NCBI RefSeq assembly: GCF_026625705.1
Contig: NZ_CP113059.1
Location: forward strand, 3,596,001 to 3,660,000
Direction of reading: 5' to 3'
From: Pedobacter sp. SL55
GTDB lineage: Bacteria; Bacteroidota; Bacteroidia; Sphingobacteriales; Sphingobacteriaceae
DNA: 64,000 nucleotides
In this document: positions 53,117-58,672 of the stretch, in pieces
How the letters are laid out: the number at the start of each line of letters is the position of its first letter
Numbering within the stretch: the first letter of the stretch is position 1
Translations under genes and position numbers: made by a program
Notes under the pieces: model-generated
Databases searched by the model: none
The model's input: the letters and a program-made list of their open reading frames with translations, nothing else
What the model was told of the DNA's origin: nothing

Positions 53117-53308
53117 ATGACAACACTGACTATACAAGTAGACGAAAAAGATACCGATTTCCTTTTACAGGTAATAAAAAGGATTAACGGAAAAGTTATA
53201 AAGTCATCAAAAAAAGACGAATTATTGAATAACATTAAAACAGGGTTACAAGAAGCTAAATTAATTAAGGAAGGCAAATTAAAAGGTTTCTCTTTAAATG
53301 ATATCTGA
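53117..53308 (+). CDS. Putative antitoxin of a type II module
   Basis: 63 residues, short beta start (TLTIQVDEKDTDFLLQVIKR) then a lysine-rich helical tail (EAKLIKEGKLKGFSLNDI) that could wrap the toxin. It overlaps the RelE-like gene by one base (TGATG). The small size, order and overlap fit a type II antitoxin; no DNA-binding motif is certain. Confidence 0.72.
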   Translation: MTTLTIQVDEKDTDFLLQVIKRINGKVIKSSKKDELLNNIKTGLQEAKLIKEGKLKGFSLNDI

Positions 53309-53631
53309 TGGCTTTAATTGAATTTGTTTATTCATCGATTTTCATTAAAAAAGCAAAACAATTAAAGAAAAAGCATGCCTCATTAGTTAACGATCTACAA
53401 AACTTGGAGAAAGATTTAAGTTTAAATCCAAAGTTAGGCACAGATTTAGGTAATGGAGTTTTCAAAATTAGATTAGCAATAAAAAGCAAAGGGAAAGGTA
53501 AAAGCGGTGGATATAGAGTAATCACTTATCATTGTATTGAAAACCAAATCAATATGATTTATATTTATGATAAATCTGAGGAAACTACTATTTCCAAGCA
53601 AGACATCATAAAAATAATTAAAGAAAGCTAA
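53308..53631 (+). CDS. RelE/ParE-family toxin
   Basis: 107 residues. RelE-fold features: KKAKQLKKKHASLVNDLQNL helices, LGNGVFKIRLAIKSKGKGKSG strands and GYRVITYHCIE, INMIYIYDKSEETTI. RelE toxins cut mRNA on the ribosome; ParE types poison gyrase. Which applies is undecided; the basic loop GKGKSGGYR favours the ribosome-dependent type. Coupled to the antitoxin by a one-base overlap. It sits in the shikimate gene block, possibly as an insertion. Confidence 0.85.
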   Translation: MALIEFVYSSIFIKKAKQLKKKHASLVNDLQNLEKDLSLNPKLGTDLGNGVFKIRLAIKSKGKGKSGGYRVITYHCIENQINMIYIYDKSEETTISKQDIIKIIKES

Positions 53632-53693: not shown

Positions 53694-53724
53694 TTGACAA
53701 ATTAAATTTGTTGGTGTACATTTG
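53694..53724 (+). promoter_or_regulatory. Promoter of the pheA attenuator leader
   Basis: TTG (53694-53696), 20 bases, TACATTTG (53717-53724): complete match to the phylum consensus. The start site should be near 53730, about ten bases before the leader peptide ATG. Confidence 0.72.
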
Positions 53725-53740
53725 ACACCAGAAAGCAAAA

Positions 53741-53803
53741 ATGAATTTCAACACTACATATTGGTTTGGTTACTTTTACTACTTTAGTAAGAGCCAGGAC
53801 TAA
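53741..53803 (+). CDS. Aromatic leader peptide (20 aa)
   Basis: MNFNTTYWFGYFYYFSKSQD, then TAA: nine of 20 residues are Phe, Tyr or Trp, eight within residues 7-15. It lies just after a consensus promoter and before the pheA terminator. It would sense the charging of tRNA-Phe and tRNA-Tyr (and Trp). The last nine bases before the stop (AGCCAGGAC, 53792-53800) match the terminator arm for the alternative stem. Chance occurrence of this run directly before pheA is very unlikely. Confidence 0.88.
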   Translation: MNFNTTYWFGYFYYFSKSQD

Positions 53804-53855
53804 TATGCTTAAAGTATAACAAAGATATTTTAAAACATACAAAAAGGTCCTGGCT
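53792..53855 (+). promoter_or_regulatory. Antiterminator pairing of the pheA attenuator
   Basis: AGCCAGGAC (53792-53800) is a perfect nine-base complement of GTCCTGGCT (53847-53855), which is also part of the 5' arm and loop of the terminator. When the ribosome stalls at the aromatic codons, this pairing is free to form and prevents termination; when it reaches the stop codon it covers AGCCAGGAC. The logic equals the classical trp/phe attenuators of enterobacteria. Confidence 0.78.
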
Positions 53856-53876
53856 AAAAAGTCAGGACCTTTTTTT
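53846..53876 (+). terminator. Intrinsic terminator of the pheA leader
   Basis: GGTCCTG (53846-53852) pairs with CAGGACC (53863-53869), extendable by a few loop bases, followed by T7 (53870-53876). It ends 13 bases before the pheA ATG, so read-through decides expression. Confidence 0.92.
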
Positions 53877-53889
53877 GTTTAACGCAATT

Positions 53890-54723
53890 ATGAAAACAAA
53901 AACAAAGGTAGCGATACAAGGCATCAAAGCATCATTCCACGAAGAAGCGGCATTTAAATTTTTTGGTAGAGATATCGAAACCGTTGAATGCAACTCCTTT
54001 AAACAAACCTGCGATGTGTTGGACGATGACAAAGCAGACTATGTAGTAATGGCCATAGAAAACTCTATTGCAGGTGGTCTATTACCTAACTACACACTAA
54101 TTCGCGAATTTAACTTTGCCGTTGTGGGCGAAGTATACCTGCCAATTCAGTTGCACTTGCTTGCTTTACCAGGAGTGAAGTTTGAAGACATTAAAATTGC
54201 TACCTCGCACCCAATTGCTATTAGACAGTGTGTAGATTTTTTCGAAGAGTTTCCTCAAATTCAAGTAATTGAGGGTAATGATACCGCTGCTTGTGCCAAA
54301 AAAATCAAAGATGGGCAACTGAAAGATACGGTAGCCATAGCCAATGCTTTAGCTGCCGAAACCTATGGCTTAAACATTATCGAAAGAAGAATAGAATCTA
54401 ATAAAAAGAACTTTACCCGTTTCTTAATCCTACAAAAAAGAAAAATGGTTACTGAAAAAGGAATAAATAAAGCATCTATCTGTTTCCAAGTGGGGCACCA
54501 TGTTGGCGCACTAAGTCAAGTATTACAAATTTTTGCAGAGCTAAACGTTAACTTAACAAAAATACAATCTATGCCAGTTTTGGGTCGCCGAAACGAATAC
54601 TATTTCTATGTAGATATTGAATGGAAAAATATGGAGAACTACGACACCGCTATTAGAAGAGCTCTTAAATACACCGTAAACTTCAATATCATGGGCGAGT
54701 ATGTGAAGAACGACAAGGTATAG
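53890..54723 (+). CDS. pheA: Prephenate dehydratase
   Basis: Converts prephenate to phenylpyruvate for phenylalanine. 277 residues from ATG 53890; a TTG at 53875 lies inside the terminator T run and is not a credible start. The catalytic part (about 1-180) has VVMAIENSIAGGLLPNY, SHPIAIRQC and NKKNFTRFLIL with the conserved Thr-Arg-Phe. The ACT domain is about 198-275 (VGHHVGALSQVLQIFAEL, LTKIQSMPV). The Phe-binding ESRP motif reads QSMP, so allosteric control may differ. Expression is set by the leader attenuator just upstream. Confidence 0.95.
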   Translation: MKTKTKVAIQGIKASFHEEAAFKFFGRDIETVECNSFKQTCDVLDDDKADYVVMAIENSIAGGLLPNYTLIREFNFAVVGEVYLPIQLHLLALPGVKFEDIKIATSHPIAIRQCVDFFEEFPQIQVIEGNDTAACAKKIKDGQLKDTVAIANALAAETYGLNIIERRIESNKKNFTRFLILQKRKMVTEKGINKASICFQVGHHVGALSQVLQIFAELNVNLTKIQSMPVLGRRNEYYFYVDIEWKNMENYDTAIRRALKYTVNFNIMGEYVKNDKV

Positions 54724-54847: not shown

Positions 54848-55990
54848 ATGAAACTAAATTTAAACATTGAGCCTTTAGAAAACTGGCTAACGGCAAACAA
54901 CCAACCTTTATTAATCTCTGGGCCTTGTAGTGCAGAGACTGAGGATCAGTTATTAACCACAGCACATTTGCTAGCCGCAACAGGTAAAGTGAGTGTTTTA
55001 AGAGCTGGTATCTGGAAACCCCGTACTCGTCCAGGAGAATTTGAAGGTATTGGCAGCATTGGTTTAGAGTGGTTAAAACGTGCTAAAGCAGAAACTGGTT
55101 TACCTACAGCGGTTGAGGTAGCTAATGCAAAACACGTTGAAGAAGCGCTAGCTGCTGGTGTTGATATTCTTTGGATTGGTGCTCGTTCGACAGTGAACCC
55201 TTTTACAGTTCAAGAAATTGCTGATGCATTGCAAGGACACGATATCCCTGTATTGATTAAAAATCCAGTAAACCCAGATTTACAACTATGGATTGGTGCT
55301 ATCGAGCGTATCAACAAAGCGGGTATCACTAAAATTGGTGCCATACACCGTGGTTTCTCTTCGTTCGAAAAATCATCTTTCCGTAACGAACCGATGTGGG
55401 AGATGGCTATTCAGCTGAAAACGCTTTGCCCTGAATTGCCAATCATCAACGATCCAAGTCATATTTGCGGTAACCGTGAATTGATTCCTTACATCTCTCA
55501 AAAAGCATTAGACTTAGATATGCAAGGCTTAATGATCGAGTCGCACTTAGACCCATCGGTAGCCTGGACAGATGCTAAACAACAATTAACTCCTGCTGCT
55601 GTAAGCGAATTAATGGATCGTTTAACGGTACGCGAACCAGAATCTGCAAACGAGGCATTTGTAGATAAATTAGCTGATTTACGTAAATCAATCGATAAAA
55701 TTGATGATTTATTGTTACAAAAACTAGGCGAACGTATGGCCATAGTAGAAAAAATTGGCGAGTTCAAACGTGATAATCAAGTAACTATTTTACAAGTGAA
55801 CCGTTGGGACGAGATCCTTAAAAAAGGAACAGCTTTCGCTAAAGCGCTGAAGTTAGATGTTCCTTTTACCGAGAAATTTTTAGAATTGGTACACGGCGAG
55901 TCTATCCGCAAGCAAACAGAAATCATGAATGCTGGCAAAGCAGTACAAGAAGGCATTGCCGCCGAGCAACACACAGAAGTAAAAGCTTAA
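54848..55990 (+). CDS. DAHP synthase fused to chorismate mutase (AroQ type)
   Basis: 380 residues. The N-terminal part (about 1-265) is a DAHP/KDO8P synthase-type barrel: LLISGPCSAETEDQLL, GIWKPRTRPGEFEGIG, KNPVNPDLQLWIGAIE, IHRGFSS, PIINDPSHICGNREL. It makes the first shikimate intermediate from PEP and erythrose-4-phosphate. The C-terminal part (about 275-365) is an AroQ helical chorismate mutase: LRKSIDKIDDLLLQKLGERM and IGEFKRDNQV. The same enzyme thus serves the first step and the step to prephenate, used by pheA upstream. The 124 bases between pheA and this gene contain short inverted words but no gene; tyrA is absent. Confidence 0.94.
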   Translation: MKLNLNIEPLENWLTANNQPLLISGPCSAETEDQLLTTAHLLAATGKVSVLRAGIWKPRTRPGEFEGIGSIGLEWLKRAKAETGLPTAVEVANAKHVEEALAAGVDILWIGARSTVNPFTVQEIADALQGHDIPVLIKNPVNPDLQLWIGAIERINKAGITKIGAIHRGFSSFEKSSFRNEPMWEMAIQLKTLCPELPIINDPSHICGNRELIPYISQKALDLDMQGLMIESHLDPSVAWTDAKQQLTPAAVSELMDRLTVREPESANEAFVDKLADLRKSIDKIDDLLLQKLGERMAIVEKIGEFKRDNQVTILQVNRWDEILKKGTAFAKALKLDVPFTEKFLELVHGESIRKQTEIMNAGKAVQEGIAAEQHTEVKA

Positions 55991-56037
55991 TTTTTTAAGT
56001 AGACTACTTATTTTTTAGGATATTAATTTTGGCCAAC

Positions 56038-56127
56038 CGTCATTTCGAACGAAACAAAGTGCAGTGAGAAATCTCTAACCGAAGCACTTCTGCTGGAGAT
56101 TTCTCCTCGTTCCTCGTCGAAATGACG
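56038..56127. repeat. REPIN/MITE-like palindromic element
   Basis: CGTCATTTCGA (56038-56048) and TCGAAATGACG (56117-56127) are perfect 11-base inverted ends; inside, GAGAAATCTC and GGAGATTTCTCC form a second stem. The CGTCATTTCGA word is a common dispersed intergenic repeat in Bacteroidota, by memory. It lies between the DAHP synthase gene and aroA. Confidence 0.78.
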
Positions 56128-56176
56128 GCAAACCAAAACAACTTTAATCCTATATCCACCTAATACCAACCAAACC

Positions 56177-57445
56177 ATGCATAAAAATGCGATTGTTTCT
56201 TTTAAAGGAACACAAAATATACAAGCGGAAATACAATTGACAGGCTCAAAAAGCGAATGTAACAGAGCACTGATCATTAAATCGTTGAGCAAAAATTTGG
56301 TAAAAGTAGAAAACTTATCCAACGCTGCCGACACCGTTACTTTAAATGCTATCTTGTCTGATTTAGATACACACGATAGTGACCGACAAAGTGCTAAAAC
56401 AGTAGATGTTGGTCCTGCTGGCACTGCAATGCGCTTTTTATCAGCCTATCTTTCTGCCAAAAACGGCAATTTTCTGTTAACAGGAACCGAACGCATGAAG
56501 CAACGTCCCATCGGGATTTTAGCGGATGCCTTAAAGGAAATTGGCGCAAATATCAGCTATGCAGAAAAAGAAGGATTTCCGCCTTTAAACATTAATGGCC
56601 CGTTAAACCAAGCAAGTTCGCGTATTAAAATCAAAGGCGATATTAGCAGCCAATACATTTCGGCTTTGCTGATGTTAGCCCCAACCCTACCACAAGGTTT
56701 AACTTTAGAAATTGTGGGCGAATTAACTTCTAAACCTTATGTAGAAATGACTTTGGCCATGTTGGCCGAATGTGGAATTTCACACGAGTGGAATGGGAAT
56801 TTAATCACTATCAGCCATCAAGCCTTCCAGCCTTCAACTTTAATTGTAGAGCCAGATTGGAGTGCTGCCTCTTATTGGTACAGCATTGTGGCCTTGGCAA
56901 AAGAAGCCCAAATCAGTCTTCCGCATTTGCGTGAGAAAAGTTTACAAGGCGATAGCCAAATCCAACAGATTATGGAGATTTTTGGCTTAAGCACTACTAA
57001 AACTGATAACGGAATTGCTTTTAAGAAAGATAGCGCAATAAAAGACACCGACAAAGTTTTAGACTTAAAAACATGCCCAGACTTAGCGCAAACCATTGTG
57101 GTTGTGGCAGCCGCTTTAGGCTTAAATATGGCATTTACAGGTTTAGAAACCTTAAAAATAAAAGAAACCGACCGAGTTGCTGCATTACAAAACGAGTTGG
57201 CTAAAATTGGTGTAAAGCTAAATGAAGATAACTTGGTTTACACTTTAGATTGTTCTGGACTGCATTTCCCTAAAAAAGTGAGCATTGCTACCTACGAAGA
57301 CCACCGTATGGCCATGGCTTTTGCTCCTCTAGCTTTACTAATTGAAGAGCTAGAAATTGAAGACTATAACGTAGTTGAAAAATCTTATCCTTATTTTTGG
57401 GAAGACTTGAAGAAAGTGGGCTTCTCTGTAGAAGAGCAAGGATAA
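56177..57445 (+). CDS. aroA: 5-enolpyruvylshikimate-3-phosphate synthase
   Basis: 422 residues; joins PEP and shikimate-3-phosphate. Seen: GSKSECNRALIIKSL near residue 24, GPAGTAMRFLSAYLS near residue 78, MKQRPIGILADALKEIGA, KETDRVAALQNELAKIGV near residue 325, YEDHRMAMAFAPLAL near residue 378. The lysine in GSKSE and Arg in DHRMAM are active-site residues. The N-terminal helix lacks the canonical GxxGT but keeps the substrate motifs. Follows the DAHP synthase gene, with the palindromic element between. Confidence 0.95.
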   Translation: MHKNAIVSFKGTQNIQAEIQLTGSKSECNRALIIKSLSKNLVKVENLSNAADTVTLNAILSDLDTHDSDRQSAKTVDVGPAGTAMRFLSAYLSAKNGNFLLTGTERMKQRPIGILADALKEIGANISYAEKEGFPPLNINGPLNQASSRIKIKGDISSQYISALLMLAPTLPQGLTLEIVGELTSKPYVEMTLAMLAECGISHEWNGNLITISHQAFQPSTLIVEPDWSAASYWYSIVALAKEAQISLPHLREKSLQGDSQIQQIMEIFGLSTTKTDNGIAFKKDSAIKDTDKVLDLKTCPDLAQTIVVVAAALGLNMAFTGLETLKIKETDRVAALQNELAKIGVKLNEDNLVYTLDCSGLHFPKKVSIATYEDHRMAMAFAPLALLIEELEIEDYNVVEKSYPYFWEDLKKVGFSVEEQG

Positions 57446-57574: not shown

Positions 57575-58672
57575 ATGGCAGGCAACTCATTCGGACAAAT
57601 CTTTCGCATTACAACTTTTGGCGAATCTCACGGTACAGCAATTGGTGTTATTTTAGACGGATGTCCGGCAGGCTTAACAATAGATTTAGATTTTATCCAA
57701 TCGGAACTAGATAAAAGGAAACCTGGTCAATCTAAAATTACTACCCAACGCAAAGAAAGCGATACTGTACAAATCTTATCAGGAACTTTTGAAGGAAAAA
57801 GCACGGGCACCCCCATTGCCATGCTAATCCCTAACGAAGATCAACGCAGTAAAGATTATGGCCACAATGTGGATGTTTACCGTCCGAGCCACGCAGATTA
57901 CGTTTACGACGCTAAGTATGGCATTCGCGACCATCGTGGCGGAGGCCGTTCTTCGGCTAGAGAAACTGCTGCCAGAGTAGCTGCAGGTGCAATCGCAAAA
58001 TTATTATTGAAACATCATGGCATCGATATTTTTGCTCATGTTACGGCCGTAGGTAAAATTAACGCACCTAATTTAGAAAGTGATCACATTGCTAAACTTT
58101 TAGAACTAAGAGAAGCCAACATTGTGCGCTGTGCAGACCCAGCTACGGCAAATGAAATGATAGCGTTTATTGATAGCATTCGTAAAGATGGCGATACCAT
58201 TGGTGGTAAAGTTTCTTGTGTTATAAAAGGCTGCCCTGCTGGCTTGGGAGAACCCGTTTTCGATAAGCTACATGCTGATTTAGGTAAAGCAATGCTGAGC
58301 ATCAATGCTGTACACGGTTTTGAATATGGTTCTGGCTTTGAGGGTACAGAATTGAGAGGCTCGGAACATAATGATGTGCCATTGCCAAAAACTCAGGATC
58401 AAAACCGTTTTAAAACCATCACCAATCATGCTGGTGGCATTTTAGGTGGCATTTCTAACGGCATGGACATTACTTTTAAAGTTGGCTTTAAACCGGTAGC
58501 TACCATTATGCACAACCAACAAACCATTAATGCAGCTGGCGAAGCATCAGAAATTAAAGGCAAAGGCAGGCATGACCCATGCGTAGTGCCAAGGGCTGTA
58601 GTAATTGTAGAAGCAATGGCAGCTTTGGTTTTGGCAGATCACTTTTTAAGAAATAAATCTTCTCAACTTTAA
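57575..58672 (+). CDS. aroC: Chorismate synthase
   Basis: 365 residues; makes chorismate from EPSP with reduced FMN. Signatures: [20 protein letters not shown] near residue 10, [20 protein letters not shown] near residue 110 and [13 protein letters not shown] near residue 288, then [12 protein letters not shown]. It is the last of the shikimate block, 129 bases after aroA. A weak stem (TAAGTAA/TTACTTA) follows, without a T run. Nothing else is visible between 58673 and 58834. Confidence 0.97.

Follow-up and report, generated by a model that had tools for sequence, protein, structure and literature searches.

Does the prephenate dehydratase gene (pheA) of Pedobacter sp. SL55 stand under a transcription attenuator, and if so, how widely is such a switch shared? 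The question arises in a 64,000-nucleotide stretch of this genome (the window), for which a first-pass annotation had proposed a promoter, a 20-codon open reading frame (ORF) with nine Phe, Tyr or Trp codons, a perfect nine-base antiterminator complement, and a strong terminator with a T7 run ending 13 bases before pheA. In Escherichia coli, the pheA attenuator consists of a Phe-rich leader peptide, alternative hairpins and a terminator before the gene. Members of the class Bacteroidia rarely use Shine-Dalgarno sequences, and an attenuator at this locus would imply coupling of ribosome and RNA polymerase.

Leader-peptide attenuation already has precedent in the phylum (PMC9723704; RF01692). 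A report on Flavobacterium psychrophilum gives 'strong clues' that leader peptides attenuate amino-acid operons, and a structured 5' element upstream of pheA that is conserved in other Flavobacteriaceae genera, with no Rfam match for this element or for that of hisG (PMC9723704). The F. psychrophilum pheA element shares gene and phylum with the one studied here, whereas its leader peptide and alternative helices are not described in the passages considered (PMC9723704). In excerpts from further sources, Bacteroid-trp is listed (PMC2864571), short ORFs reminiscent of leader peptides are noted in Bacteroides thetaiotaomicron (PMC7366714), and leader genes, those of Bacteroidetes included, are treated for reinitiation (PMC4833913). 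Among the matches listed, as far as their excerpts go, a class-wide pheA leader is not described; a comparative attenuation study may bear on priority.

Here we describe the parts of this element, their conservation within and beyond the family, and their predicted interplay. Taken together, they make it very probable that the element is a ribosome-mediated transcription attenuator sensing the charging of Phe and Tyr tRNAs, and at this locus also of Trp tRNA.

Results

An aromatic leader and predicted competing helices before pheA

Every part named by the first-pass annotation is present where it had been placed, and all stand in the right order (Table 1). The promoter, read directly from the sequence, has the form TTG-N20-TAnnTTTG, which we take by consensus to be of the Bacteroidota type; TTGACAA together with the same -7 element is seen again in Pedobacter upstream regions, and transcription probably starts near 53731. 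The leader ORF, ahead of the prephenate dehydratase gene, carries its aromatic residues as F3, Y7, W8, F9, Y11, F12, Y13, Y14 and F15. Strand 2 ends at the base directly ahead of the leader stop codon, and its nine-base complement to strand 3 is perfect; this antiterminator uses an arm of the terminator and excludes it. From the T7 run (53870-53876), 13 bases (53877-53889) lead to the pheA ATG at 53890.

Two helices had been missed. Strand 1, predicted to pair with 53798-53807 in a helix that would exclude the antiterminator, completes the set 1:2, 2:3 and 3:4, and an inner hairpin lies within the leader codons, nested in 1:2, where it is possibly a pause hairpin. The segment 53731-53876 folds at -45.5 kcal/mol (z -8.0), with none of 200 shuffles equally good. 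When both strands of the window were scanned by a script that requires an ORF rich in F/Y/W together with a terminator and a competing arm, the F/Y/W signal appeared only at this locus.

Table 1. Positions of the proposed attenuator parts and neighboring genes in the window.
Feature	Position	Strand	Detail
Promoter	53694..53724	+	-33 TTG at 53694-53696, 20-base spacer, -7 TACATTTG at 53717-53724
Leader ORF	53741..53803	+	MNFNTTYWFGYFYYFSKSQD; ATG at 53741, 20 codons plus TAA (53801-53803), nine F/Y/W codons
Strand 1	53757..53766	+	CAUAUUGGUU; pairs with 53798-53807 as anti-antiterminator 1:2 (MFE)
Inner hairpin	53773..53793	+	CUUUUACUA/UAGUAAGAG; 53773-53781 with 53785-53793, 9 bp
Strand 2, antiterminator 5' arm	53792..53800	+	AGCCAGGAC; overlaps last codons
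Strand 3, antiterminator 3' arm	53847..53855	+	GTCCTGGCT; common to terminator 5' arm
Intrinsic terminator 3:4	53841..53876	+	arms 53841-53855 and 53860-53874, 15 nt, 93% complementary
pheA, prephenate dehydratase	53890..54723	+	PF00800, E 7.6e-53; first gene, putatively regulated
DAHP synthase/chorismate mutase fusion	54848..55990	+	PF00793, PF01817; gene after pheA
aroA (EPSP synthase)	56177..57445	+	PF00275
aroC (chorismate synthase)	57575..58672	+	PF01264

The PheA protein has a C-terminal ACT-like stretch (PF01842, 26.8 bits, slightly below the cut-off of 27) and lacks an N-terminal chorismate mutase, a domain carried by the next gene; its nearest named relatives found are from Pedobacter (P. 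ureilyticus, 98%; P. helvus, 95%). No terminator was found by script in the 124-base gap between pheA and the fusion gene, which is possibly co-transcribed with pheA; aroA and aroC possibly belong to the same operon. Upstream of the leader element lie aroB and a RelE-like toxin gene.

Two further features of this neighborhood deserve mention. The RelE-family gene (53308-53631, PF06296) and a small ORF directly before it, from about 53117 by eye, occupy 53117-53631 in the interval between aroB and the pheA leader, and are perhaps a toxin-antitoxin pair. In the gap between the DAHP synthase gene and aroA (55991-56176), a long palindromic segment, TCATTTCGA...GAAATCT...AGATTTCTCC...CGAAATGACG, was recognized by eye; it is perhaps a dispersed REP-like repeat, since a similar one lies beside the leu genes, upstream of the first gene (L218).

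Conservation and covariation within the family

Family-side sampling yielded 127 loci (35 same-genus loci, 80 from named records and 12 class-search matches, some genomes occurring twice), which reduce to 101 distinct leader segments, 62 of them taken for covariation; in one of the 36 same-genus genomes (G034) the PheA match was not found. Far from lacking the ORF and stems, the relatives have them: an F/Y/W-rich leader with the attenuator element was recognized by script at 125 of the 127 loci, and by eye at the other two (L093, L099), where the T-run is shorter. A covariance model built from 62 family leaders (R1) has matches in 148 of 151 family genomes and 25 of 25 genera at E<=0.01. With the limit at E<=1e-5, matches are left in 130 of 151 genomes and 20 of 25 genera; the other five genera are represented by weak matches alone, and such matches may be other terminators.

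The aligned family leaders gave strong covariation for the terminator and moderate covariation for the antiterminator. In terminator 3:4, the best supported helix, 98.8% of cells in the 62 rows are paired and 8 of 12 pairs are changed on both sides, and none of 500 shuffles is as high on any of five measures, a kind of comparison that, here and below, is inflated by the relatedness of the rows. The antiterminator is paired in 89.3% of cells (its outermost pair fails in 52 rows), with 3 of 10 pairs changed on both sides; its covariation score is reached by 0 of 500 shuffles and its number of such pairs by 59 of 500, and a control slid by +3 has as many changed pairs (8 cells versus 7). For 1:2, 85.6% of cells are paired versus 33-42% in slid controls, with no covariation above shuffles in the 62 family leaders. 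The inner hairpin is paired in 92.7% of cells and has 3 of 9 pairs changed on both sides; slid by -2 it scores 0.143 versus 0.096 for covariation, and slides of -1 and -2 give more cells changed on both sides. Complementarity of strands 2 and 3 exceeds that of shuffles at p<=0.05 in 46 of 47 family and 37 of 49 non-family leaders, the remaining 12 of the 49 not surpassing shuffles at that level.

The frame of the leader ORF has to be considered as well, for the same stretch is also readable as a Leu-rich ORF beginning within the promoter. We rejected that frame: other families have the F/Y/W pattern in different DNA, and an ATG is available in the F/Y/W frame of 116 of the 125 family-side leaders, the others having TTG (for example L005, L010, L014 and L030). 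A GGAG, GAGG or AGGA core at -20 to -4 precedes just 3 of the 125 leaders, with the start picked by rule, so the pheA leader would need initiation without a canonical Shine-Dalgarno sequence.

One record among those collected, titled as a Legionellaceae MAG (L089), encodes a PheA with 72% identity to the query, preceded by a leader like those of Sphingobacteriaceae; it is possibly mislabelled or contaminated.

The arrangement in other families and beyond the class

From 89 class matches we subtracted the 13 of the own family and left out G155, G319 (partial), G290, G249 and G286 (no tblastn start); G056 (locus L044), with no script signal and by eye a coding sequence before pheA, was set aside, and 70 loci remain. 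To pass the script, a locus needs at least five F/Y/W in ten codons and a terminator, along with a competing arm of -8 kcal/mol or better. By this measure the arrangement stands before pheA at 47 of the 70 loci, in 17 of 24 other families, versus 2 of 2,800 dinucleotide shuffles, and four further class loci outside the 70 (L238, L241, L247, L248) are positive. The non-family leaders are very diverse, as in MKRFNTYFWFYYYFFKALPGFERVAVCC and MNTFATYFFFFFYYFYFSNEVKREFVYVR; that the arrangement is kept with largely different leader sequence supports the attenuator reading. Their 47 ten-codon clusters are composed of 41% F, 33% Y and 2% W, F and Y occurring in all 47 and W in 11.

Some loci lack the element. 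Among the 23 of 70 that fail the script, 19 are without such a leader by eye; at L160, L162, L170 and L189 an aromatic leader and a terminator-like hairpin are visible by eye, L162 and L170 failing for want of a strong competing arm, theirs not exceeding shuffles (p 0.28 and 0.22). The element is present in none of the eight loci of one family (f12), and in one genus (g72, three loci) the upstream stretch resembles the end of aroA by eye, so that pheA is not first there. Other residue sets, real versus shuffled, gave 19/70 against 18/2,800 for LIV, which is also above shuffles, 39/70 against 24/2,800 for FLI, and 6/70 against 1/2,800 for NK; real loci alone, out of 70, gave HQ 1, STA 12, RGP 7, DE 0 and CM 0. 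We attribute the LIV and FLI signals, taken together, to frame overlap and to Phe.

Outside the class, PheA occurs in 95 genomes labelled as of the same phylum only, 23 of which were examined. With divergent PheA, the script found no leader in 20 of 20 sampled genomes; one stretch is short (L272) and at least one PheA is a long fusion whose start may be outside the stretch (G565), so these are weak evidence of absence. In three genomes whose PheA matches the Bacteroidia profile at 346-367 bits (L232, L244, L245), leader and terminator are present every time, and the leaders fall outside the start of the coding frame. Leader and PheA type seem to travel together, whether through descent or through transfer. 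As to these three loci themselves, they may reflect transfer of gene and attenuator together, or a matter of taxonomy.

Predicted exchange of structures and position of the ribosome

Equilibrium folding without a ribosome gives 1:2 a probability of about 0.93 for RNA ends from 53808 to 53846. At RNA end 53858, with strand 4 not yet made, P(2:3) is 0.945 and P(1:2) 0.007; at ends 53866 and 53874, 1:2 has returned to 0.93 and 2:3 has vanished. Such an exchange of the three RNA states would be as expected for an attenuator, with timing deciding among them.

The ribosome was modelled as a mask from -15 to +12 bases around the first base of the A-site codon, on RNA ending at 53858. In such masked folding P(2:3) is 0.94-0.96 with the A site on codons 2-7 (0.95 at codon 7), 0.99 on codons 8-13, 0.89 on codon 14, 0.23 on codon 15, 0.001 on codon 16, and 0 from codon 17 to the stop; the antitermination zone holds eight of the nine aromatic codons, F15 lying outside. 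Since P(2:3) is similarly high at this RNA end without a ribosome, the model indicates that the antiterminator is disrupted once a ribosome has moved beyond the cluster, and does not show a stall to be needed. In the folding, only ribosomes beyond codon 14 stand out from all others, and specificity for starvation would therefore rest on kinetics.

According to the model, codon placement fits in the window and in four relatives, such that a stalled ribosome would free strand 2 and a finished one would cover it, the signal appearing weaker in other families. Between a ribosome at the cluster and one at the stop, the model gives a difference above 0.3 for 24 of 47 leaders from other families and for 23 of 47 from the family, with no reversal in either set; this direction is partly built in because a ribosome further downstream masks more. 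Two Mucilaginibacter loci (L109, 1053-1165; L115, 1361-1482) are informative here: one extra base past the aromatic run leaves that run in frame and alters only the tail, the ORF ending ...FYFTK. Their stop codon begins 4 bases ahead of strand 2, where a ribosome would still mask strand 2 in the model, and their modelled switch is the same as in L096 and L104; the peptide tail therefore seems unimportant, and the cover of strand 2 important.

Relation to known leader families

Rfam Phe_leader (RF01859) likewise combines a leader peptide enriched in the amino acid that the pathway makes with alternative hairpins and a terminator before pheA. The Pedobacter leader differs in its mixed Phe/Tyr/Trp codons, where those of RF01859 are mainly Phe, and in having no Shine-Dalgarno core, and its PheA differs from the enterobacterial system in having no N-terminal chorismate mutase; the leader scores 16.8 bits against this family, below the gathering score of 55. 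Bacteroid-trp (RF01692) gives the highest bit score among 27 weak Rfam matches (28.9 bits, E 0.17, gathering score 49), Thr_leader having a lower E (0.0027) and being also below cut-off. RF01692 resembles the pheA leader in phylum, in leader type, and in a similar 1:2 stretch, CAUAUUGGU...ACUAAUAU, in its alignment. No match to RF01692 exceeds the cut-off anywhere in 59 genomes, the own included, and two reach E<=0.001; in one relative (L031, 46.7 bits) a Trp-rich leader, NNNWWWH, precedes a gene resembling trpD by eye.

At Rfam gathering scores the window contains one tRNA as its sole match and no T-box, and no leader family is found at 11 pheA loci of this and other families. At L167 a Flavo-1 RNA (539-616; 78.6 bits) lies some hundred bases ahead of the pheA leader, without overlap.

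Other leader-like ORFs in the same genome

In the same genome, hisG is preceded by an ORF, MNLSLNHHFHLHHRHCGDM, with six His in 19 codons and a hairpin inside the ORF (L215), behind which no terminator was found by script. A trpE-like gene has before it a leader-like ORF, MINKTNTWHWRSNSKESFVNDLCKI, with two Trp in 25, followed by a terminator (L217). The script found no Leu/Ile/Val leader on the coding strand of a 6.5-kb leu stretch. Leader-type control may be more general in the Pedobacter sp. SL55 genome.

Discussion

The sequences and their comparison show the parts and how well these are conserved, covariation in 3:4 and to some extent in 2:3, and a placement of codons that suits the arms; the start site, translation of the leader, stalling, read-through and the role of 1:2 we infer. 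In the proposed mechanism, RNA polymerase would start near the predicted site and make the leader, while a ribosome translates the leader ORF behind it. Under a shortage of charged aromatic tRNAs, this ribosome would stall on codons 7-14, covering strand 1 and leaving strand 2 free; strand 2 would pair with strand 3, and transcription would continue into pheA and perhaps also the aro genes that follow. With aromatics in good supply, the ribosome would reach the stop and cover strand 2, 3:4 would form, and transcription would end in the T-run, short of pheA. In an untranslated leader 1:2 would form first and favor termination.

The alternative that survives best, itself improbable, is that the terminator is constitutive or answers to an RNA-binding protein, a metabolite or tRNA directly, the ORF being incidental. 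It would suit the lack of covariation in 1:2 and the fact that the terminator alone is the best supported helix. It leaves unexplained why F/Y/W-rich ORFs so far exceed shuffles before pheA in other families, where their differing leader sequences indicate a constraint on the amino acids; neither the window nor the 11 pheA loci, the window's own among them, hold a T-box or riboswitch at the Rfam gathering score, and the extra base of the Mucilaginibacter loci spares the aromatic frame.

Slightly less probable still is a DNA-binding regulator at the promoter palindrome ACAAATTAAATTTGT, with a leader that merely fine-tunes. The palindrome in the spacer (53697-53711) is perfect and similar in Pedobacter relatives, whereas two spacers on the Mucilaginibacter side differ from it, and a genome scan allowing one mismatch gave 8 matches to the motif and 6 to the reversed pattern, which indicates no regulon; on those counts we dropped the operator. 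Translational control, with the last hairpin hiding the pheA start region, is the least probable reading: the T-run does end close to the ATG, yet the hairpin, which covaries, excludes the ATG and is followed by T7, and in other families' leaders 8 to 229 bases separate it from the presumed start of pheA.

Ribosome-mediated attenuation is, then, the reading we prefer, and the element, itself confirmed and conserved, would be mechanistically ordinary trp/phe-type attenuation, broad and useful and not surprising. What is added over known work is its breadth, the pooling of Phe and Tyr, and the rarity of Shine-Dalgarno cores. We give an even chance to a wider view, in which an old Bacteroidia attenuator is tied to one PheA type; pooled Phe/Tyr and sometimes Trp charging would be read as a single aromatic cue governing pheA together with the common shikimate steps, ribosome and polymerase would be closely coupled without Shine-Dalgarno sequences, and the sequence would have turned over while the logic was kept. 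Such turnover would explain the absence of a covering Rfam family, and would make these leaders an evolutionary series of one switch in different sequences. For the Bacteroidota, the finding offers an aromatic sensor; and since attenuation needs a ribosome close behind RNA polymerase, an attenuator that recurs in a class with little use of Shine-Dalgarno sequences makes coupling of transcription and translation in this phylum testable by a simple reporter.
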